From NCBI RefSeq assembly GCF_028657945.1, contig NZ_CP059693.1, forward strand, positions 434,001 through 498,000: a stretch of 64,000 nucleotides of DNA. The letters run 5' to 3'. Source of the stretch: Thalassomonas haliotis. Lineage in GTDB: Bacteria; Pseudomonadota; Gammaproteobacteria; Enterobacterales; Alteromonadaceae. Made by a program: the position numbers and the translations under genes. Of the stretch, positions 2 through 9,905 are shown piece after piece. Within the stretch, counting starts at the first letter, position 1; the number at the start of each line of letters is the position of its first letter. A model generated the notes under the pieces. It did no database searches. It saw only the letters and a list, made by a program, of their open reading frames with translations, and had not been told where the DNA came from.

Positions 2-2563
2 GGTCAGGTTTACCTGAAAGTGGGAGAGCTTGAAAATGCCGAAAAAGAAATCAAAAAAGCCATTGAATACGGCTATGACGCACAGGCGGCTAACTTATTA
101 TTGGCGGAAATTCTGTTAGAGAAAAACGATAACCAGGCGGTGATTGACTTACTGGCGACACAGAAGTTTGCTACAGAGTCGGCGCAAATTTTAAGCTTTA
201 TTCTTAAAGGTAAAGCACACCTTAATTTACAGCAAGTGGAATTGGCCAGGGACGCCTTTGATACCGCCAATGATATCAATGTCGAGTCGTCTTACAGTTT
301 ATATGGTTCTGCCATAGTGGCGTCTATGGATGATAATTACCTGCTGGCGGCAGAGTTGCTGGACAAGGCCCTGGGGCAGCAGGATGACCTGGCGGAAGGC
401 TGGATATTAAAAGCCAGGGTGGCGGAGCAAAACAAAGACTTTGTCACCGCAGTAAGCGCCTATGAAAAATTTTTACAGCTGAGACCCAGGGCGCATAGTA
501 TTAAGTTATTGATGGCAAATGACTATCTTCAGCTGGAAGATCATGACGCCGCCGAAAAGCTGGTGGATGATCTGCTGAAATTAAATGATGCCCACCCGAC
601 GGCAAACCTGCTTAAGGCAAAAATAGCCAACAGCAAAAAAGATTATGCCTTGGTGAAAAAGCATGCCGAAGCCACGTTAAATATTACTCCTGAAGATCCC
701 CTGGCCCTGTATTTATCCGGGATCAGCAATTACTTTCTCAATAACTTTGAACAGGCGTATACCGCCCTGTCGAAAATTGTCGATCGCCTGCCGAAAACTC
801 ATGAAGCCCATAAGTTATATATGCTGTCGATGTTAAAACTCGGTTATGTTGACCAGTTAAATGAACATGTCGAAGTGTATGAAGGCTTTGATGATAAGGA
901 CAGTAACTTACTCTCAGTGATCGGTTCTAGCCTGGCGGTCAGCGGACAAACCCAAGATGCGGAAACGATTTTTGAAAGGGCGCTTGAGGTCAAACCGGAT
1001 GATGTCAATGCCAAGAAAAAGCTGGCTTTTGCCCGCTTGATGAATCGTGATCTGCAGGGGATCAGTGATCTGGAGGAAGTCAACGCCGTCAGTTCAGACG
1101 ATAAAATGGTTAACCTGGTCCTGGCCTCAGCCTACCTGTATCAAAATAAAATTGAGGAAGCGGATAATATCGTCGAAAAATGGCTGGCAAAAGAGCCGAA
1201 AGATATCGAAGCGCTGTTGTTAAAGGCCCGGGTATTAAGCGTTTCAGGCGAGCAGGACGCCAGTTTAACTGTGCTTAAGCAAGCACAGGGTTACCAGCCG
1301 GACTCCAACAAGGTATTGTTAAAACTGGCGGAGCACCATTTAAGGGCGTCAGAATATCAAACGTCGGAAGCTTTGCTGAAGAAAATATTGACCGCAGCCC
1401 CGGATACCAAGCCGGCATTGATCATGCTGAACCTGGCAAGTCAAAAGCTGGAAAAACAACAACAATTCTTTGATTACTTAACGGATATTAATGCCAGGCA
1501 TAGTGAAGTAATCTGGCCTAAGCTGATGCTGGCGCAAAAAGCCATCAATGACAGGAATGCAGAGCAGGCTTTAAAAGATCTGGCGCCGCTTGCCCAGCAG
1601 GAAAAATTGCCCAATGCCTACTATTCCATCGTGATGAATGGCCATTATCTGTTATCGGATAAAAGCAAACTCAACGATGTTGCCAGCAAATGGCAGGCGG
1701 CGGATCCTCAGGCTGTGGTGGCCTACCTGAAGCATATTGAATTTCTTGAAAAGCTCGGCGATATTCAAGCGGCCTTGCTGCAAGCGCAAAAAGCCCAGAA
1801 AAAAGTTACTAAAGAAAGTGACAATTTACGTTTGAAGGTGTTGGAAACCCACTATTTATTGCGTTTAGGCCGAAATAACAAGGTCGGGCCTTTACTGACC
1901 GAATTGCAGGCTAAGTTGCCGGATAATGCCCTGGTGAGTCAGCTGGCGGGGCACCTGGCTTTTAATAAAAAGCAATATGATCAAGCCATTGACCACCTGG
2001 AGCAGTCTTTTGCCAAAGACAGCAATGTTAGAACTGCCTTGTTGCTGGCAAGTGCCTACCGCAGAACGAATGATGAAGCCAAAGCCGTTGCTTTGCTGGA
2101 GCAGGCACCTGAAAAAGTGAATCAGAATGCTGCCGTGCAAAGTTTGTTATCTGAAATGTATACCAGAACAGATGCTGCCAAAGCCATAGATTCTTATTTA
2201 AAGCAGATCAAAGCATCACCTAACAATGTGGTCGCTTTGAATAACCTTGCCTGGTTGTTAACCGAGCAGAAAAAATATGACCAAGCCGTTAGCTACGCCA
2301 GAAAAGCACATGAGCTGATGCCGGATAACCCGCAAATTCTCGATACTCTAGGGGTTGCTTTACTGAAAAGCATTAAACAGGGAGAGGCGCTGGAAATCTT
2401 GAAAAAGGCCTATTCGCTTTCTAAAGAGGCGACGATTAAAGTGCACTACGCCCAGGCCCTTGCCGCCAATGGCCAGAAAAGTGAAGCCCGGCAGCTGGTA
2501 GAAGGCCTGACGGCAAAAGAAAAATCTGAGTTAAAGGATGAGTTGGCTCAGCTGATCTTATAG
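2..2563 (+). CDS. prsT: PEP-CTERM system TPR-repeat protein PrsT (5' truncated by window)
   Basis: This is a long all-helical protein made of tandem tetratricopeptide repeats, with recurring A-x-x-x-Y/F-x-x-A-L type helices over about 850 residues. The reading frame stays open to the first base of the window, so the GTG at 20 is probably internal and the N-terminus lies outside. The family is the large TPR lipoprotein (PrsT) encoded in exosortase / PEP-CTERM exopolysaccharide loci, thought to be a periplasmic or outer-membrane scaffold. The assignment rests on the repeat pattern, the size and the two PEP-CTERM genes just downstream. It ends before a strong terminator at 2601. A generic TPR protein is the alternative. 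Confidence 0.8.
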   Translation, partial: GQVYLKVGELENAEKEIKKAIEYGYDAQAANLLLAEILLEKNDNQAVIDLLATQKFATESAQILSFILKGKAHLNLQQVELARDAFDTANDINVESSYSLYGSAIVASMDDNYLLAAELLDKALGQQDDLAEGWILKARVAEQNKDFVTAVSAYEKFLQLRPRAHSIKLLMANDYLQLEDHDAAEKLVDDLLKLNDAHPTANLLKAKIANSKKDYALVKKHAEATLNITPEDPLALYLSGISNYFLNNFEQAYTALSKIVDRLPKTHEAHKLYMLSMLKLGYVDQLNEHVEVYEGFDDKDSNLLSVIGSSLAVSGQTQDAETIFERALEVKPDDVNAKKKLAFARLMNRDLQGISDLEEVNAVSSDDKMVNLVLASAYLYQNKIEEADNIVEKWLAKEPKDIEALLLKARVLSVSGEQDASLTVLKQAQGYQPDSNKVLLKLAEHHLRASEYQTSEALLKKILTAAPDTKPALIMLNLASQKLEKQQQFFDYLTDINARHSEVIWPKLMLAQKAINDRNAEQALKDLAPLAQQEKLPNAYYSIVMNGHYLLSDKSKLNDVASKWQAADPQAVVAYLKHIEFLEKLGDIQAALLQAQKAQKKVTKESDNLRLKVLETHYLLRLGRNNKVGPLLTELQAKLPDNALVSQLAGHLAFNKKQYDQAIDHLEQSFAKDSNVRTALLLASAYRRTNDEAKAVALLEQAPEKVNQNAAVQSLLSEMYTRTDAAKAIDSYLKQIKASPNNVVALNNLAWLLTEQKKYDQAVSYARKAHELMPDNPQILDTLGVALLKSIKQGEALEILKKAYSLSKEATIKVHYAQALAANGQKSEARQLVEGLTAKEKSELKDELAQLIL

Positions 2564-2973: not shown

Positions 2974-3004
2974 AAAAAACCTCTGAGCATTTCAGAGGTT
3001 TTTT
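2974..3004 (-). terminator. intrinsic terminator of the first PEP-CTERM gene (possibly bidirectional)
   Basis: A 13-bp stem (2974-2986 with 2992-3004) encloses a 5-nt loop. An A-tract on one side and a T-tract on the other let it work in both directions. It lies 17 bases beyond the stop codon of the minus-strand gene at 3021. Confidence 0.85.
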
Positions 3005-3020
3005 AATTGGAACAGCAGGT

Positions 3021-3878
3021 TTACTTGTTGGCTTTTCTCTTAGAGAAGCCTAATCCTAATAAGCCAAGGCCAAATAAGGCAATCATTGAAGGCTCTGGAA
3101 CTTCTGTTAAACGGGCGAAAGTATAAACGGTTGTAGAAGTTTCTTCCTCTGTCCATACTCGCTCCTGATCGATAAGGGTGCTACCGTCGGCATCAAAAGA
3201 AGTGAAGATAGTTAATGCGTAGTGCTTGCCATCGATGTAGAAAGGAACGGCAAACGGCAGCACATCTGGCAATGGATCTGGATTATCGATTGAATAGTCA
3301 AAGTAGTCATCACAACCTGTGGCAAAATTGTGGTTATCGCCGCCGGCAATGCCGTCTTCGTCTACAGCGGAACAGTTAGCCGGATCGGTTTGGTTAAAAG
3401 TTTCTGTGAATTCGATATCAAAATCACTGGTTGCGGTTGAAGTGAAATCATCAACAACGAAAGAGTTACCGAAACCTGCAGCAATACCGCCTGAATTAGC
3501 ACTTGAAAAGTCAATGGAACCGGCAATGTCAGCTTGGGTTAACCAGTCAAAGCTGGCACTGATGCGGAAGTTGTTGTGGGTTAAAGCGGAAATCATGTAG
3601 TTGGTATCAAGGGCATCGATATCAACAGAGAAACCTTCCAGGATTAAAGAGCTGTATGAGCCGTTGCCGCCCCAGCGAACACCGTCATGGATCACTGTGC
3701 CGTCATTTGTTTGATCGGCATGAGCGCTACCGTCAAGGTTGGTGAACTCACCGGCATCTTTAGAAACAAAGCCACCAGTAGAAGTTGCTGTCATAAAAGT
3801 TGCGTTAGCGCTGAAAGAAAATGCACTAGCAATTGCTAAAGCGGTTAAGTTTTTAATCCATCCAGTATTTTTCATCAT
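3021..3878 (-). CDS. THxN-type PEP-CTERM sorted surface protein, copy 1
   Basis: This is an exported protein of about 285 residues. It has an N-terminal signal peptide (a hydrophobic run at about residues 10-26 ending in Ala-Asn-Ala), a T-H-N-N motif near residue 100 typical of the THxN PEP-CTERM family, and two cysteines in the Asp-rich central part. The C-terminal sorting signal is Val-Pro-Glu-Pro-Ser, a hydrophobic helix and a Lys/Arg-rich tail. Exosortase is expected to cleave at the PEP motif and attach or release the protein at the cell surface. Two adjacent ATGs exist (3878 and 3875); the second is better spaced from AGGG. Copy 2 at 4348 is a close paralogue. A sigma-54 promoter lies upstream. 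Confidence 0.92.
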   Translation of the reverse strand: MMKNTGWIKNLTALAIASAFSFSANATFMTATSTGGFVSKDAGEFTNLDGSAHADQTNDGTVIHDGVRWGGNGSYSSLILEGFSVDIDALDTNYMISALTHNNFRISASFDWLTQADIAGSIDFSSANSGGIAAGFGNSFVVDDFTSTATSDFDIEFTETFNQTDPANCSAVDEDGIAGGDNHNFATGCDDYFDYSIDNPDPLPDVLPFAVPFYIDGKHYALTIFTSFDADGSTLIDQERVWTEEETSTTVYTFARLTEVPEPSMIALFGLGLLGLGFSKRKANK

Positions 3879-3956: not shown

Positions 3957-3971
3957 GCATTTTGTGTGCCA
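3957..3971 (-). promoter_or_regulatory. sigma-54 (-24/-12) promoter of PEP-CTERM copy 1
   Basis: Read on the minus strand, this is TGGCACACAAAATGC: a perfect -24 TGGCAC, and GG and GC exactly 10 bases apart as sigma-54 requires. The predicted transcript start is about 70 bases ahead of the start codon. Copy 2 has the same arrangement. Confidence 0.75.
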
Positions 3972-4045
3972 GAAAATAAATATCATTAATAAACAGTGGC
4001 TTGCTTCTGGTTTTGCCTGGTTATATTTGCTTGGCTTGAATTTGC

Positions 4046-4106
4046 TGTAAAGAAAATCGACATCCGTGTAAAGCGTTCTGACGGTTGACTGTAAAAAAAA
4101 GAGACA
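4046..4106 (-). promoter_or_regulatory. array of three putative activator boxes (TGTAA-N8-GAC)
   Basis: Three 17-bp boxes, written on the plus strand as TGTAA-N8-GAC(A/G), lie at 4046-4062, 4067-4083 and 4090-4106. Their starts are 21 and 23 bases apart, so they fall on one face of the helix. They lie about 75-150 bases upstream of the sigma-54 promoter, where enhancer-binding proteins normally bind. The same box occurs upstream of copy 2. The most likely binder is the PrsR-type regulator of PEP-CTERM systems, which is inference. Confidence 0.55.
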
Positions 4107-4290
4107 CTATGTTGGAAGCTGTATGAGGGGAAGGTGGTGCTCTCGCGGGCAAGGTCGGTTCTTTGTTTTATTATCGAATGGGAATGGCGGTGTTGACTGG
4201 TAATATGCTTGGCTGGAGAAGTTCGGTTATTCTTGTTGGCTCACCGAATACAGCAGGATGTGTGGACAAGCTTAGTCGCTATTAAAAATA

Positions 4291-4318
4291 TAAAACCTCT
4301 GTTGATACAGAGGTTTTA
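4291..4318 (-). terminator. intrinsic terminator of the second PEP-CTERM gene
   Basis: A perfect 11-bp stem (4291-4301 with 4308-4318) has a 6-nt loop. On the minus strand it is followed by a T-rich stretch. It lies 30 bases beyond the stop codon of the gene at 4348. Confidence 0.75.
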
Positions 4319-4347
4319 TGTAACGTAAACAAGTTTACCTGGTGGTA

Positions 4348-5202
4348 TTAGTTCTCTGTTTTTCGTTTAGAGAGACTAAAACCTAATAAACCTAACGCAA
4401 GTATGGCCAGGGTGGACGGTTCTGGAATCTCACTTAAACGGGCAAAGGTATAAAGAGTGGTTGATTTCTCTTCCTCTGTCCAGATGCGCCCGGGGGGTAA
4501 TACCGTACTGCCATCGGCATCGAAGGAGCTGAATATGGTTAAAGCGTAATGGCTGCCATCAATATAAAAGGGGATGGCGAACGGCAGGGTATCAGGCAAT
4601 GGAGCCGGATTGTCGATTGAATAGTCGAAGTAGTCATCACAGTTGGTGACAAAGGTGTGGGTAGCGCCACCGGCAACGCCGTCTTCATCTACTGGCGAGC
4701 AGCCAGCGACATCTGATGTGTTAAAGGTTTCGGTGAAACCGATATCAAAGTCACTCATGGCATTGGCAGTAAAAGCATCTGCTACTGTTGAGCTTCCAAA
4801 GCCTGCAGCAATACCGCCGGTATTGCTGCTGCTAAAGGCTATCATACCCAAAATATCGGCATTGGTGAGCCAGGGAAAGGCAGCACTGATGCGGAAGTTA
4901 TTATGGGTTAAAGCCGAAAGCATGTAGTTGGTATCCAGGGCATCTATATCCGGAGCAAAGTCCTCCAGTACCAATGAGCTATATGCACCGTTACCACCCC
5001 AGCGAACCCCTGCATGCTTTACCGTACCATCATTGGTTTGATCCGCATGTAGGGTGCCGTCAAGGTTAATAAACTCGCCGGCATCTTTCATTACAAAGCC
5101 GCCATTGGATGTTGCTGTCATGAAAGTTGCGTTAGCACCAAAAGAAAGTGCACCCGTAAGTGCTATCGCAGTCATGTTTTTCATCAATCCGATATTTTTC
5201 AT
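4348..5202 (-). CDS. THxN-type PEP-CTERM sorted surface protein, copy 2
   Basis: This 284-residue paralogue of the gene at 3021 aligns over its whole length. It shares the signal peptide, the T-H-N-N motif near residue 100, the conserved Asp-rich region with two cysteines, and the C-terminal Pro-Glu-Pro-Ser / hydrophobic helix / Ser-Lys-Arg-Lys sorting tail. The ATG at 5202 is preceded by a good AAAGGAAAGG site. Each copy has its own sigma-54 promoter and its own terminator, so the duplication covers a whole transcription unit, not just a gene inside an operon. The surface function is unknown; a biofilm-matrix or cell-surface role is the usual inference for PEP-CTERM proteins. Confidence 0.92.
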   Translation of the reverse strand: MKNIGLMKNMTAIALTGALSFGANATFMTATSNGGFVMKDAGEFINLDGTLHADQTNDGTVKHAGVRWGGNGAYSSLVLEDFAPDIDALDTNYMLSALTHNNFRISAAFPWLTNADILGMIAFSSSNTGGIAAGFGSSTVADAFTANAMSDFDIGFTETFNTSDVAGCSPVDEDGVAGGATHTFVTNCDDYFDYSIDNPAPLPDTLPFAIPFYIDGSHYALTIFSSFDADGSTVLPPGRIWTEEEKSTTLYTFARLSEIPEPSTLAILALGLLGFSLSKRKTEN

Positions 5203-5272
5203 TGCCTTTCCTTTATCTGTTGAATTTTACTAAACCAGAAATTGATTTAGCCCAGGTTTGGTTAAAAAATGA

Positions 5273-5287
5273 GCATAAGGCATGCCA
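5273..5287 (-). promoter_or_regulatory. sigma-54 (-24/-12) promoter of PEP-CTERM copy 2
   Basis: On the minus strand this reads TGGCATGCCTTATGC, with GG and GC separated by 10 bases. It lies about 70 bases upstream of the ATG at 5202, in the same position as the promoter of copy 1. Confidence 0.7.
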
Positions 5288-5327
5288 TCAAATTAAAGTC
5301 AATAGAAAACAAAGGATTGGCCTGAAC

Positions 5328-5368
5328 TGTAAGATTTTGGCTTAAAGCTTATGTAAAATATACTGACA
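5328..5368 (-). promoter_or_regulatory. putative activator boxes upstream of PEP-CTERM copy 2
   Basis: One full TGTAA-N8-GACA box lies at 5352-5368, and a half-matching TGTAA box starts 24 bases away at 5328. The full box ends one base before the stop codon of the ThiF-like gene. The position relative to the sigma-54 promoter resembles that of the three-box array of copy 1. Confidence 0.45.
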
Positions 5369-6220
5369 TCAGGCGTCGACAACACGTTTGGCGATATGAA
5401 ACATGATGCGTGGAATGAGTCCTGAGTTGCCAAAAGGTCGCCAGGTTTTTACTAATTTATTGCGGTAGGCGTCAAAGTGCAGCCCATAGGGGGCAGCTAA
5501 TACCTCTCCCCGATTAAGCAGTATTTTTAAAGCATAAGTTTCGGCGATACCGGCACATAGGTTTACTGCCATCGGGGTCGAGGGGCCTCGTTTTTCTTTA
5601 AAATTCACCCGGCTCTCATCCACCAGATACTGGCGTTGCAACATGGCGGGTGAAAGGCCGATCAGGAACTGAATAAGCTGGTCGTGCTCTGACTTCCCTG
5701 CAAATTTGAAGTATTGCTCATAAGTCATTTGCCCCGGCATAAAGCAGAGCAAGGCACAACCCATGCCTAAAGGTGCTGCCGTGATCACCGGGATCTGCTT
5801 TTCATAGCATTTTTGAAAAACGGTTTTACGGGCTTCGAGGGCGAAGAAATCCAAAGCATCGACATATAAATCAACATCTTCGAGAAACTCATCGACATTA
5901 TGAGCGAAAATCCCCTCGGGGAAAGAATTGATGTTTGCTTCCGGGTTGATGTCTTTTGCCAACTCTTCCATTACATCGACTTTTTGTCTGCCAAGCGTCG
6001 ACATAAATGCCCCCGATTGACGGTTAAAATTGTGTACCTCAAAGTCGTCAAAATCTGAGATGTTAAAATTCTCGACACCCAGTCTTGCCAGGGTTAATAA
6101 GTGGATACCGCCCACGCCGCCGGCACCGGCAATGGCCACCCGGCGGGTTCTTAAAGTTTCCTGTTCGGCTTCGCTAACCCAGCCTATGTTTCTTGAAAAA
6201 GCTTTTTTGTAATCGAACAT
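5369..6220 (-). CDS. ThiF/MoeB/HesA-family adenylyltransferase (E1-like)
   Basis: The N-terminal Rossmann fold carries the ATP-binding Gly-rich loop GAGGVGG at residues 32-38. It is followed by the family Asp and the Asn-x-Asn-Arg-Gln motif (F-N-R-Q near residue 66) used by E1-like enzymes to bind ATP. Family members adenylate a carboxylate, classically the C-terminal Gly-Gly of a small sulfur-carrier protein. The two CxxC zinc pairs of MoeB/ThiF are absent. No carrier protein, JAB protease or E2 gene is nearby, so the substrate is unknown. It lies on the same strand as the sugar-nucleotide genes but 303 bases downstream, beyond a hairpin at 6477, so it may be transcribed separately. Confidence 0.82.
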   Translation of the reverse strand: MFDYKKAFSRNIGWVSEAEQETLRTRRVAIAGAGGVGGIHLLTLARLGVENFNISDFDDFEVHNFNRQSGAFMSTLGRQKVDVMEELAKDINPEANINSFPEGIFAHNVDEFLEDVDLYVDALDFFALEARKTVFQKCYEKQIPVITAAPLGMGCALLCFMPGQMTYEQYFKFAGKSEHDQLIQFLIGLSPAMLQRQYLVDESRVNFKEKRGPSTPMAVNLCAGIAETYALKILLNRGEVLAAPYGLHFDAYRNKLVKTWRPFGNSGLIPRIMFHIAKRVVDA

Positions 6221-6523: not shown

Positions 6524-7582
6524 TTATACCTTATGGTAGTTCCGGTACCAGTTAACGAAGTTACCGATACCCGTCTGGATTGTGGTTTGCGGACGATAGT
6601 TGACATCCTGTACCAGTTGCTCAACATCGGCATAGGTATCCGGCACATCACCCGGTTGTAGCGGCAGCAGGTTTTTTTCTGCTTTTTTTCCTAAAGCGTT
6701 TTCCAGGGTTTCGATATAGTCCAGTAACTCGACCGGTGACTGGTTACCGATATTATAAACCCGCCATGGCGCCTTGCTGGTGCCCGGATCCGGGGTTTCA
6801 CCGGACCAATCCGGGTTGCCGCTCGCAGTATTGTCTAAGGTGCGGACAATACCGTTAACGATATCATCAATATAGGTAAAGTCACGCTTGTGTTTGCCGT
6901 AGTTAAAGACATCGATAGGCTTGTCTTCGAGAATGGCTTTAGTGAACATAAACAAAGCCATATCCGGGCGTCCCCAGGGGCCGTATACGGTAAAGAAGCG
7001 CAAACCGGTTGTCGGCAAGTCGTACAGGTGGCTATAGGTATGCGCCATCAGCTCATTGGCTTTTTTGCTGGCGGCATATAAAGACAGCGGGTGGTCGACA
7101 TTGTCATGCACAGAGAAGGGCATGCTTTCATTGGCGCCGTAAACGGAACTGGATGAGGCATAAGTCAGGTGTTTTACCTTGTTATGGCGGCATCCTTCCA
7201 GGATATTGGTAAAGCCGACAATATTGCTGTCGATATAGGCATGGGGGTTTTCTATGGAGTAACGCACCCCGGCCTGGGCCGCGAGGTGAACAACTTTATC
7301 AAACTTTTGTTCGGCGAAAAGTTGCTCCATGCCTTCACGGTCGGCAACATCCATTTCGACAAAGGTAAAGCTGCCCTTATTTCCCGACTCGGGATAGGGA
7401 AAGTTTTCTTCCAGAGTGCCGTCAAGATATGCATCAATCCTTTTCAGGCGGCTGTGCTTTAAATTGACATCGTAATAATCATTCAGGTTATCCAAGCCGA
7501 TAACTTCGTCTCCCCGCGCCAGCAGGAAAAGCGAGACATGGGAGCCGATAAAACCGGCGGCACCGGTGACTAAAATTTTCAT
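6524..7582 (-). CDS. NAD-dependent epimerase, UDP-glucuronate 4-epimerase type
   Basis: This is an extended short-chain dehydrogenase of 352 residues. The NAD-binding GxxGxxG ([10 protein letters not shown]) is at residues 6-15, the catalytic Tyr169-x-x-x-Lys173 pair sits in YAASKKANE, and a Ser-rich stretch precedes VYG. The N-terminal block with [13 protein letters not shown] is characteristic of UDP-glucuronate 4-epimerases, which make UDP-galacturonate for capsule and O-antigen. It starts 28 bases after the dehydrogenase gene, so the two are almost certainly one operon supplying acidic sugars for surface polysaccharide. UDP-N-acetyl-uronate as substrate is possible given the TviB-like partner. 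Confidence 0.9.
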
Positions 7583-7610
7583 AACAGTTTCTCAAACAGG
7601 GTAATTAACA

Positions 7611-8885
7611 TTAAAGTCTTAAATCAGACTCTTGAGCATCAAACAGATATTTTAAGTCAAATACCAGCGCACCGGGTTTGCCGAGTTTTCTGATTTCAGG
7701 CATAGACATTGTTTTGAACTCTTGATGGCCGACGGCGATGATGATGGCATCATACTGCCCGGCTTGCGGTTGTGTCATTTCGATGCCGTATTCGTGTTTG
7801 ACAATGTCGGCATCGGCCCAGGGATCGTGGATATCCACCTGGGCGCTGTAATCTTTCAGCTCGTCCACTATGTCGATCACCCGGGTATTACGTACGTCCG
7901 GACAGTTTTCTTTGAAGGTAAAACCTAAGATCAATACTTTAGCGTCAACAATATGGATGCGTCTCTCTATCATGGCTTTGACCAGGCGTTTCACAACAAA
8001 GCGGCCCATATCGTCATTTATCCTGCGCCCGGATAAAATCACTTGCGGGTGATAATTGAGCTGCTGGGCTTTATGGGTCAGATAATAGGGGTCGACACCG
8101 ATACAGTGGCCGCCTACCAGGCCGGGTCTGAAAGGCAGAAAATTCCACTTGGTACCGGCAGCCTTTAGTACTTCTTCGGTATTGATGCCTATTTTGCTAA
8201 AGATCACTGCCAGCTCATTGATCAGGGCGATATTGACATCCCTTTGGGTATTTTCAATGACTTTTGCCGCTTCGGCGACTTTAATTGAAGAGGCCTTATG
8301 GGTGCCTGCGGTGATAATGCTGGCATACACCTGGTCGACAAAGTCGGCAATTTCCGGGGTTGAACCCGCAGTGACTTTTAAAATAGTCTCCAGCCGATGT
8401 TCTTTATCCCCGGGGTTGATCCTTTCCGGGCTATATCCGGCGTAAAAATCTCGGTTAAAGGTCATGCCGGTATTTTTTTCGATAACGGGAATACAGACTT
8501 CTTCGGTAGCGCCCGGATAGACGGTAGATTCATAAACAACAATATCTCCCGGCTGGATCACTTTGGCTATGGTTTCACTGGCCTTGATTAACGGCGTCAG
8601 ATCCGGCTGCTTGTATTCATCTATCGGGGTTGGGACGGTGACGATATAAAAATTGCACTGGCTCAGTGACTCAATGTCATGGCTAAAGGTTAACTGCTTT
8701 GCTTGTGCCAGCTCATCTTGTTCGACTTCAAGGGTGTTATCTACGCCCTGGTTCAGCTCACTAATGCGCTGCTGGTTAATATCAAAGCCCAGGGTCGGGT
8801 ACTTCCTACCAAAAGATACGGCAAGCGGAAGACCGACATAACCCAGTCCAATGATACCAATTTTCAATGACGCTATGTTTTTCAT
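7611..8885 (-). CDS. tviB: UDP-N-acetylglucosamine/galactosamine 6-dehydrogenase, TviB/WbpA type
   Basis: A nucleotide-sugar dehydrogenase of 424 residues with three domains. The NAD-binding GxGxxG (IGLGYVGLP) is at residues 12-20, the active-site Lys208 is in EAAKVIEN, and the catalytic Cys261 is in [12 protein letters not shown]. The C-terminal UDP-binding domain contains [14 protein letters not shown]. Motif content matches Vi-antigen TviB closely. It oxidises the C6 hydroxyl of UDP-HexNAc to a carboxylate with NAD. It is the first gene of a pair with the downstream epimerase and provides uronic-acid precursors for capsule or exopolysaccharide. Confidence 0.92.
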
Positions 8886-9080: not shown

Positions 9081-9905
9081 TTAAATCAATTTAAGATCGC
9101 TCAGCTGTTCGCAAATGTCATTTTCGATAGCCTTAAACAGGCTTTTAAATCCCGGGGTTAAATTATCCATAAATATTTTCGGGTTGATATAGTAGGGCGC
9201 CCTGAGGCCATGATAATCAATAGCGTCCCCGAGCTGATGAAAGTTAATGCCGACAAACTTCATACTCCGGGCAAGCCTGGGTTCCATCATTACGTAAACA
9301 TGTTTGATGCCGGTATCTATGGCCAGGGTGGCCGCGGCCATATACAAACCTATGGCGATAAAGGGGAAACAGCGCAACTCGGTTTCGGAATAGGTGCTTT
9401 CGCTGATCACCCCGATGGCAGATCCCTTGAATTGGTCTGATTTACGGCGACGGAAGTCGGCTTTGACCGCTAGCCGGGAAATTTCACAGATTTCAGTTCG
9501 TTTGAAGTTGCTCGGGTGCAGGCTTTCATTTTGAATGGAGTCGAGACAATATTTTTCAATAGGCAGCAATTCGGCTTCGCAACTGGATCTCACCACGCGC
9601 ACACAACTGGTGTAGGTGCTCGAAGGTTTATGTTTGATCATCGAGAAAATAGAATGATCATCAAACTCATCCTTTTCCTGCCCTTCAGCTTTCACTTCTT
9701 CGAAAGCGAGTTCTTCACAATAGACATTATGCCTGATTTTGAAGACTTCAGCGCGCAGTTCATCGGTTGTTGCCAGCTCAGGCTTTAGAAATTGGGTAAA
9801 GTGCTCCGCAATATTCTTGGCATCATTGCTGACTTTCATCGATGCTATTTTTTTGGTGATGTTGCCAATTATGGGGGTATTCAGCAACCTCTTATTCCAA
9901 CTCAT
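9081..9905 (-). CDS. PEP-CTERM/exosortase system-associated acyltransferase
   Basis: A 274-residue GNAT-like protein of the exosortase-associated acyltransferase family, related to N-acyl amino acid synthases (FeeM type) and autoinducer synthases. The diagnostic N-terminal stretch ELRAEVFKIRHNVYCEEL is followed by an acidic Asp-Glu-Phe-Asp-Asp-His-Ser block and a C-R-V-V-R strand. There is no signal peptide, so it is cytoplasmic. Family members are predicted to move a fatty acyl group from acyl-ACP to an amino-group acceptor; the acceptor in PEP-CTERM bacteria is unknown. It supports an active exosortase system even though the exosortase gene lies outside this window. Confidence 0.87.
   Translation of the reverse strand: MSWNKRLLNTPIIGNITKKIASMKVSNDAKNIAEHFTQFLKPELATTDELRAEVFKIRHNVYCEELAFEEVKAEGQEKDEFDDHSIFSMIKHKPSSTYTSCVRVVRSSCEAELLPIEKYCLDSIQNESLHPSNFKRTEICEISRLAVKADFRRRKSDQFKGSAIGVISESTYSETELRCFPFIAIGLYMAAATLAIDTGIKHVYVMMEPRLARSMKFVGINFHQLGDAIDYHGLRAPYYINPKIFMDNLTPGFKSLFKAIENDICEQLSDLKLI

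Follow-up and report, generated by a model that had tools for sequence, protein, structure and literature searches.

The question raised by a 64,000-nucleotide stretch of the Thalassomonas haliotis genome (NCBI RefSeq assembly GCF_028657945.1, contig NZ_CP059693.1) is how the two PEP-CTERM genes that it carries, hereafter copies 1 and 2, are switched on. The source genome of 6.45 Mb consists of one contig (C1), of which the stretch represents C1:434001-498000; it is referred to throughout as the window, and positions are counted from its first base. PEP-CTERM proteins are surface proteins that accompany a sticky sugar coat. An initial annotation of the window had assigned to each gene a sigma-54 promoter with upstream boxes of the form TGTAA-N8-GAC, and had proposed that these might be the operator of PrsR, a regulator assigned to such promoters in 2006. 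Despite that assignment, the accessible portions of the literature found, a search that left most subscription journals outside, give no mechanism by which PrsR reaches its promoters.

The outcome of the present analysis is that, with a probability of roughly 0.8, each of the two genes is under a sigma-54 promoter that depends on PrsR, belongs to the type reported by Haft et al. in 2006 and is arranged in the loop geometry proposed below. Sequence statistics establish the box, its preferred orientation, a helical comb in its distance from the promoter, a locked site matching the consensus of integration host factor (IHF), and the link of the box to PrsR.

Promoter elements of the two copies

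Each gene is preceded on the minus strand by a sigma-54 -24/-12 element, above which stand an IHF-like site and, further upstream, one or more predicted PrsR boxes (Table 1). Both -24/-12 elements lie exactly where the initial annotation had placed them, at 78 nucleotides (nt) from the start codon in copy 1 and 70 nt in copy 2. The GG-N10-GC spacing by which they had been recognised is correctly positioned but is worthless as evidence by itself, being matched 682 times in the window with 678 matches expected, which is background. The fuller pattern TGGCAY-N5-WTGC has only two matches in the window, both of them at these promoters, with 1.24 expected. Sigma-54 patterns alone being so near to chance expectation, it is their context that makes both promoters credible.

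The box pattern of the annotation was matched five times in the window against an expectation of 0.48, and none of 100 shuffled sequences reached five. The three boxes of copy 1 and the single full box of copy 2 were confirmed at the positions given for them; the additional partial box claimed for copy 2 at 5328 was not, its score of -9.4 being equalled or bettered at 1963 positions of the window. The fifth match (280-296) is located inside prsT, with the box orientation running with the gene. A further box-like sequence at 6061-6077 (TGTCGAGAATTTTAACA, score 16.8) is situated inside a ThiF-like gene (5369-6220) and has a similar counterpart in Thalassomonas sp. RHCl1 (L283, 860); it probably reflects coding conservation.

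In the accessible part of their paper, Haft et al. (2006; PMC1569441) described motif 1/motif 2 promoters in which a 17-nt box ending in TTTACA, sometimes repeated, is separated by a spacer (mean 62.8, standard deviation 10.6, range 32-92 nt) from motif 2, a sigma-54 GG/GC element that precedes the start codon by some 71 nt (23-221). Both copies share with this class the 17-nt box ending in TTTACA, the sigma-54 GG/GC element and the PEP-CTERM gene downstream. Their spacers of 74 nt (copy 1, proximal box) and 64 nt (copy 2), measured here to a 15-mer whereas motif 2 of Haft et al. comprises 17 nt, lie within the published range, as do their start-codon distances of 78 and 70 nt, and the genome encodes PrsK, PrsR and PrsT, as genomes of the Haft class do. 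By way of difference, only the mean, standard deviation and range of the spacer were reported, with no comment on the standard deviation being about one helical turn, and the main text of the paper (PMC1569441) contains zero occurrences of IHF, integration host factor, phasing or looping.

The IHF-consensus site

The region between box and promoter was analysed in 89 promoter spacers, comprising 12 of the source genome and 77 of 15 other genomes. Perfect matches to the IHF consensus were present in 10 promoters, compared with 0.4 in shuffles, and matches with one mismatch in 32, compared with 8.5. These sites were fixed relative to the -24 element and not to the box: among those with at most one mismatch, the distance from the end of the site down to the -24 element was 19-20 nt for 21 of 30 antisense sites and 6-7 nt for 13 of 24 sense sites. 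With these two offsets, which were derived from the same 89 promoters as were then used for counting, a locked site with up to two mismatches was found in 58 promoters (mean 5.0, maximum 11 at shifted positions), and one with up to one mismatch in 34 (mean 1.2, maximum 4). The locked site accompanied 30 of 45 sigma-54 sites with a box and 2 of 38 without, in a set that shares most promoters with the 89 and in which the box-less sites may often not be promoters. One site counted as box-less, L077 (C1:779400-781000), has a locked IHF-like site with one mismatch and a box 98 nt from TGGCACAAGCCTGGC that scores 8.9, the threshold being 9. Both copies possess an IHF-consensus site between enhancer and promoter, and the orthologues of both in Thalassomonas sp. 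RHCl1 retain an antisense site at 19 nt, with 1 and 2 mismatches.

It is unlikely, though of the alternatives considered here the one that survives best, that this element is simply an A/T-rich stretch bound by polymerase or by an HU/Fis-like nucleoid protein. The stretch is indeed A/T-rich and lacks the IHF consensus in 31 of the 89 promoters, and in the sense class the A/T content of the side expected for IHF (0.66) and of the short promoter side (0.64) cannot be told apart, falling to 0.47 further upstream; as the A/T-rich arm is thus uninformative in that class, confidence in the overall reading was slightly lowered. What is matched, however, is the specific pattern WATCAANNNNTTR, in two orientations at two offsets (19-20 and 6-7 nt) which, given the known structure of IHF, would place the centre of the bend at almost one and the same base, some 19-20 nt upstream of the -24 element. 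In the antisense class, the larger of the two with 41 promoters, the A/T-rich arm moreover occupies the side that IHF would require (0.75 versus 0.51), and the source genome encodes IHF-alpha (160 bits).

Association of the box with PrsR

Identification of the box as a predicted PrsR site, which had been no more than suggested in the initial annotation, is supported by its distribution. The sample consisted of 143 genomes of the class, one per genus, 39 of which encode PrsR above cut-off, and in all of them the box, counted as TGTC-N7-TTTACA, was compared with a reversed-pattern control. The PrsR-positive genomes contained 460 boxes against 178 control matches, and the 104 PrsR-negative genomes 364 against 408; an excess of boxes was recorded in 35 of the former and 37 of the latter (Mann-Whitney p = 4e-13). 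This accords with the work of Haft et al., the accessible text of which indicates that PrsR was itself derived from the phylogenetic profile of this box over 13 species (PMC1569441). The annotation had also noted that the PrsK/PrsR pair is common at PEP-CTERM loci, and both are encoded (713 and 748 bits, respectively), some 33 kb before the first base of the window and adjoining other genes of the XrtA system; PrsR was the sole one of 73 family matches to exceed the cut-off. RpoN is likewise encoded (507 bits).

That the box is instead the operator of a different NtrC-type activator, linked to PrsR only through co-inheritance with the PEP-CTERM system, appears very improbable. Candidates for such a role exist, in that another 21 proteins reach at least 70 bits against the central domain of TIGR02915 while staying under its cut-off, and four PrsR-negative genomes (G042, G076, G126 and G131) show a box excess of at least 5. 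Nevertheless, the excess follows PrsR across 143 genomes each of a different genus, and the profile of Haft et al. singled out PrsR independently. In addition, as far as the available text of the relevant report extends, five predicted PEP-CTERM targets were enriched in DAP-chip (DNA affinity purification read on a chip) with DVUA0057, a PEP-CTERM-linked regulator from Desulfovibrio vulgaris, although in work that offered no validated binding motif (PMC3333781).

Genome G126 (L123 and other loci) has no PrsR above cut-off and contains 12 boxes against 6 control matches, three of them identical (TGTCGATAAAATTTACA); either another regulator uses the same site there, or the boxes belong to something that is repeated.

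Spacing and orientation of the box

The distance from box to promoter was established with 183 boxes from other genomes that had sufficient flanking DNA, 162 of them from PrsR-positive and 21 from PrsR-negative genomes, after de-duplication by flank and removal of the 2 of 185 whose downstream DNA was shorter than 170 nt. The other 38 PrsR-positive genomes contain 432 counted boxes, from which the 162 were read; with the exception of the first 30 loci, taken from many genomes, the genomes used for the comb were picked for a high box count over the control and not for spacing. A sigma-54 element with up to two mismatches was located downstream of 78 of the 162 boxes and of 2 of the 21.

The spacers of the 75 pairs with a separation of 30-125 nt, drawn from 15 PrsR-positive genomes, form clusters centred on 52.0, 63.3, 74.1, 86.2 and 95.8; the standard deviations are close to 1 and the slope is 10.91 base pairs (bp) per step. 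The corresponding Rayleigh value of 0.80 compares with a maximum of 0.38 in 5000 jittered sets. The annotation had described the boxes of copy 1 as a phased array and this was upheld, since at 74, 95 and 118 nt they deviate by no more than about 1.1 bp from the comb 63.4 + 10.91n, which was fitted on other genomes.

The comb is most improbably an artefact of the shared descent of a few promoters, as might arise because paralogous PEP-CTERM promoters in one genome can be mutual copies, for when each spacing is counted once per genome (59 values, 15 genomes, different families) it retains a Rayleigh value of 0.78, several of its teeth often occur within a single genome, and 16 of 17 pairs in the held-out genomes described below conform to it.

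The box also has a preferred orientation. Its interior is asymmetric (TGTC versus TTTACA), dyad symmetry being confined to the ends (TGT...ACA), and sigma-54 elements with up to two mismatches around the 183 boxes numbered 80 downstream, 3 upstream on the same strand and 8 upstream on the other strand. Divergent promoter pairs exist in which each promoter has its own box, and these may explain part of the eight opposite-strand cases. An orientation is implied by Haft et al., where the accessible text has motif 1 aligned one way with TTTACA as its 3' end (PMC1569441).

Both the comb and the IHF offsets were fixed before the boxes of seven further PrsR-positive genomes were read, part of their boxes being covered; one locus each of G094 and G045 (L129 and L131) had been read earlier, without a pair at that time. 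A sigma-54 element with up to two mismatches followed 22 of 58 boxes, with 17 spacers of 30-125 nt and five of 152-169 nt. The preset comb accommodated 16 of the 17 pairs to within 2 bp (p = 1.2e-6), and the locked IHF-consensus site (up to two mismatches) was present in 12 of the 17, compared with a mean of 1.35 at shifted positions.

Promoters with more than one box

In copy 1 extra same-strand boxes are positioned 21 and 44 nt from the first. A tight array of this type was considered as the usual arrangement and rejected, only copy 1 among 108 promoters having same-strand second boxes at less than 77 nt. Same-strand second boxes within 240 nt nonetheless numbered 29 against 0.68 expected, with 18 of the 29 at 101-133 nt upstream. 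The 23 second-box distances of 70-160 nt exhibited a period of 11.15 bp (Rayleigh 0.61), a value as high being reached by 0.23% of jittered sets. In genome G021 (L141, L150, L156, L159, L225 and others) many promoters are of a two-enhancer type, with second same-strand boxes 101-148 nt above the first, at distances near multiples of 11 bp and with scores of up to 25.

The orthologue of copy 1 in Thalassomonas sp. RHCl1 has three boxes at 74, 97 and 120 nt, although its filler DNA is different and one spacing is 23 where copy 1 has 21; retention of all three despite the changed filler indicates that the triple array is maintained and is not accidental. Lying two and four helical turns apart, the boxes of copy 1 would bring additional PrsR to the same side of the helix, and the promoter would accordingly be expected to be stronger or more sensitive than that of the single-box copy 2.

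Boxes across the source genome

Genome-wide, the box pattern of the annotation was matched 67 times and its reversed control 100 times, so that enrichment is visible by position only. By that measure it is pronounced. The genome contains 50 PEP-CTERM domain matches, 44 of them above cut-off. The 600 nt upstream of these 50 contain 21 of the 67 boxes, spread over 18 matches, where the genome-wide density predicts about 0.16; the prediction that boxes would precede other PEP-CTERM genes was thus borne out. All 21 have the same orientation, with TTACA gene-ward, and all 18 genes belong to the 44 above cut-off. For this count start codons were assigned by rule, except at L012, L026, L029, L049 and L058, where they were chosen by hand. 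Of the remaining 46 boxes, 23 have no GG-N10-GC at 25-139 nt downstream. A de novo motif search of 49 upstream regions, from which the weakest PEP-CTERM match (L058) had been left out, recovered first the sigma-54 element and not the box. The weighted box model was trained on exact matches, and its fixed columns were therefore imposed by the search.

A few of these 46 boxes, at L059 (C1:4801500-4803500), L064 (C1:1955200-1957200) and L062 (C1:2388000-2390000), stand before secreted PEP-CTERM-like proteins with VPES, VPAP or IPEP tails that were not listed by the PF07589 search; the boxes of L059 and L064 stand at comb distances of 73 and 74 nt, the latter from a weak sigma-54 element. At L060 (C1:3720000-3722000) a sigma-54 element with a box at 54 nt and an IHF-like site in the locked position (one mismatch) precedes an open reading frame (ORF) of 58 amino acids with a signal-peptide-like start, possibly a small target of the regulon.

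Evidence to the contrary

Ranged against the interpretation of both copies as PrsR-dependent promoters of this geometry are a number of observations. Four of the 39 PrsR-positive genomes (G010, G017, G052 and G077) have no box excess, and 37 of the 104 PrsR-negative genomes have some. Only 78 of the 162 boxes from other PrsR-positive genomes have a sigma-54 element with up to two mismatches, implying that part of the exact box matches are chance occurrences or belong to weak promoters. Seven of the 75 fitted pairs are more than 2 bp off the comb (46, 50, 61, 72, 78, 88 and 94), and the source-genome promoter L048 and one held-out pair, each with a spacer of 81, are off it as well. Of the seven held-out genomes, five contributed the 17 pairs, with G094 alone accounting for 11, and two gave none in the spacer range of 30-125 nt. 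The locked site is missing in 31 of the 89 promoters, and that of copy 1, with two mismatches, is weak alone. In the source genome the exact box is absent within 600 nt upstream of 32 of the 50 PEP-CTERM matches; the weighted model places a good box at 25-129 nt in 16 of the 34 upstream regions with a sigma-54 candidate, and a further 15 of the 49 upstream regions lack any such candidate.

Gene context

Copies 1 and 2 are 73% identical and constitute one family. Terminator-like hairpins, identified by eye, follow both genes at approximately 2978-3010 and 4290-4320, each copy therefore having the appearance of a single-gene unit. The only named relatives matched by the two copies were found at two Thalassomonas sp. 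RHCl1 loci, with 92% and 64% identity, a result that defeated an attempted many-species footprint; it was obtained by a scan of genome contigs from which records very near the source genome may be excluded. Beside the PEP-CTERM genes, at 6524-8885, are sugar-nucleotide genes that include an epimerase-like protein, with no family above its cut-off among the matches listed, and a TviB-like dehydrogenase (648 bits, cut-off 592); they may point to an aminouronic-acid exopolysaccharide.

Table 1. Genes and predicted promoter elements of the PEP-CTERM locus, in window coordinates. TPR, tetratricopeptide repeat.
Feature	Sequence	Coordinates	Strand	Details
PrsT, TPR protein of PEP-CTERM/XrtA system		20..2563	+	TIGR02917 457 bits, cut-off 312
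PEP-CTERM gene copy 1, THxN family		3021..3878	-	NF038125 100 bits (cut-off 85); PF07589 above cut-off
Sigma-54 -24/-12 element, copy 1	TGGCACACAAAATGC	3957..3971	-	
IHF-like site, copy 1		3991..4003	-	antisense orientation, 19 nt above -24 element, 2 mismatches
Predicted PrsR box 1 (proximal), copy 1	TGTCGATTTTCTTTACA	4046..4062	-	74 nt from -24 element, score 23.5
Predicted PrsR box 2, copy 1	CGTCAGAACGCTTTACA	4067..4083	-	95 nt from -24 element, score 13.6
Predicted PrsR box 3 (distal), copy 1	TGTCTCTTTTTTTTACA	4090..4106	-	118 nt from -24 element, score 15.1
PEP-CTERM gene copy 2		4348..5202	-	PF07589 above cut-off; NF038125 84.3 bits, slightly under cut-off 85
Sigma-54 -24/-12 element, copy 2	TGGCATGCCTTATGC	5273..5287	-	
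IHF-like site, copy 2		5307..5319	-	antisense orientation, 19 nt above -24 element, 1 mismatch
Predicted PrsR box, copy 2	TGTCAGTATATTTTACA	5352..5368	-	64 nt from -24 element, score 21.4
Exosortase-associated acyltransferase, same PEP-CTERM system		9081..9905	-	TIGR03694 266 bits, cut-off 112

Relation to known systems

Apart from the one failed box, the initial observation was right and its reading as PrsR promoters is supported; that reading was published in 2006, and with the box, the sigma-54 link and the PrsR assignment all in Haft et al., the headline amounts to a rediscovery in a Thalassomonas-like genome. The comb, the locked IHF geometry and, beyond what Haft et al. imply, the preferred orientation were, by way of contrast, not found described for the PrsR system in the literature searched. 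None of the matches listed dealt with PEP-CTERM promoters being helically spaced, nor was PEP-CTERM found together with the word IHF in the literature searched, subscription journals being mostly outside both searches; of three papers that co-mention PEP-CTERM and 'integration host factor', one does so, in its accessible part, in an unrelated way (PMC12325454).

Comparisons with other sigma-54 systems are likewise based on the accessible portions of the relevant papers. The closest in spacing is LuxO-qrr, where 61 natural enhancers with loops of about 80 to 120 bp form clusters some 11 bp apart, but with another activator, another tandem of binding sites and no description of a locked IHF site (PMC4740811). 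The upstream activating sequence of NifA, TGT-N10-ACA, resembles the box in its TGT/ACA ends and its sigma-54 activator, whereas the PrsR box is TGT-N11-ACA with an asymmetric interior and a preferred orientation (PMC6296734). The CbrB promoters of Pseudomonas putida recall copy 1 in having three subsites 20-25 bp apart on one helix face above a sigma-54 promoter, but their subsites are short, of mixed orientation and poorly conserved (PMC6296734). Finally, pepA of Aquincola tertiaricarbonis is a PEP-CTERM gene with a TGGCAC -24/-12 element at which its start has been mapped, dependence on RpoN1 and a previously predicted upstream enhancer, although its box geometry was not analysed (PMC9850573).

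Proposed mechanism and significance

In the mechanism proposed, the kinase PrsK would phosphorylate PrsR, an NtrC-type AAA+ activator, which would then bind the oriented 17-bp box (TGTC-N7-TTTACA, TTTACA gene-ward) roughly 100 bp upstream of the start site. IHF, at the site just above the -24 element, would bend the DNA sharply, and the bend would fold PrsR back onto the waiting sigma-54 polymerase. Occupation of these sites by PrsR, IHF and sigma-54, together with formation of the loop, is predicted from the sequence. The confinement of the box to one helix face, at distances in whole turns of about 10.9 bp, would be a consequence of the loop being short and stiff.

It is considered probable, if somewhat less so than the assignment of the two promoters themselves, that gammaproteobacterial PrsR promoters are a single rigid, directional, three-part device comprising an oriented box on a 10.9-bp comb, a -24-locked IHF bend in two orientations and a sigma-54 element, and that this device is strict enough for members of the regulon to be recognised from DNA alone, including PEP-CTERM-like proteins missed by the protein model. 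With the comb and the locked IHF site, the motif pair of 2006 becomes a structural rule, which sharpens genome-wide prediction of the exosortase/PEP-CTERM regulon, a regulon of importance to floc formation in sewage treatment and to the biology of the biofilm matrix. Taken with the LuxO-qrr case, the natural short-loop enhancers of sigma-54 promoters may be more widely under helical selection.

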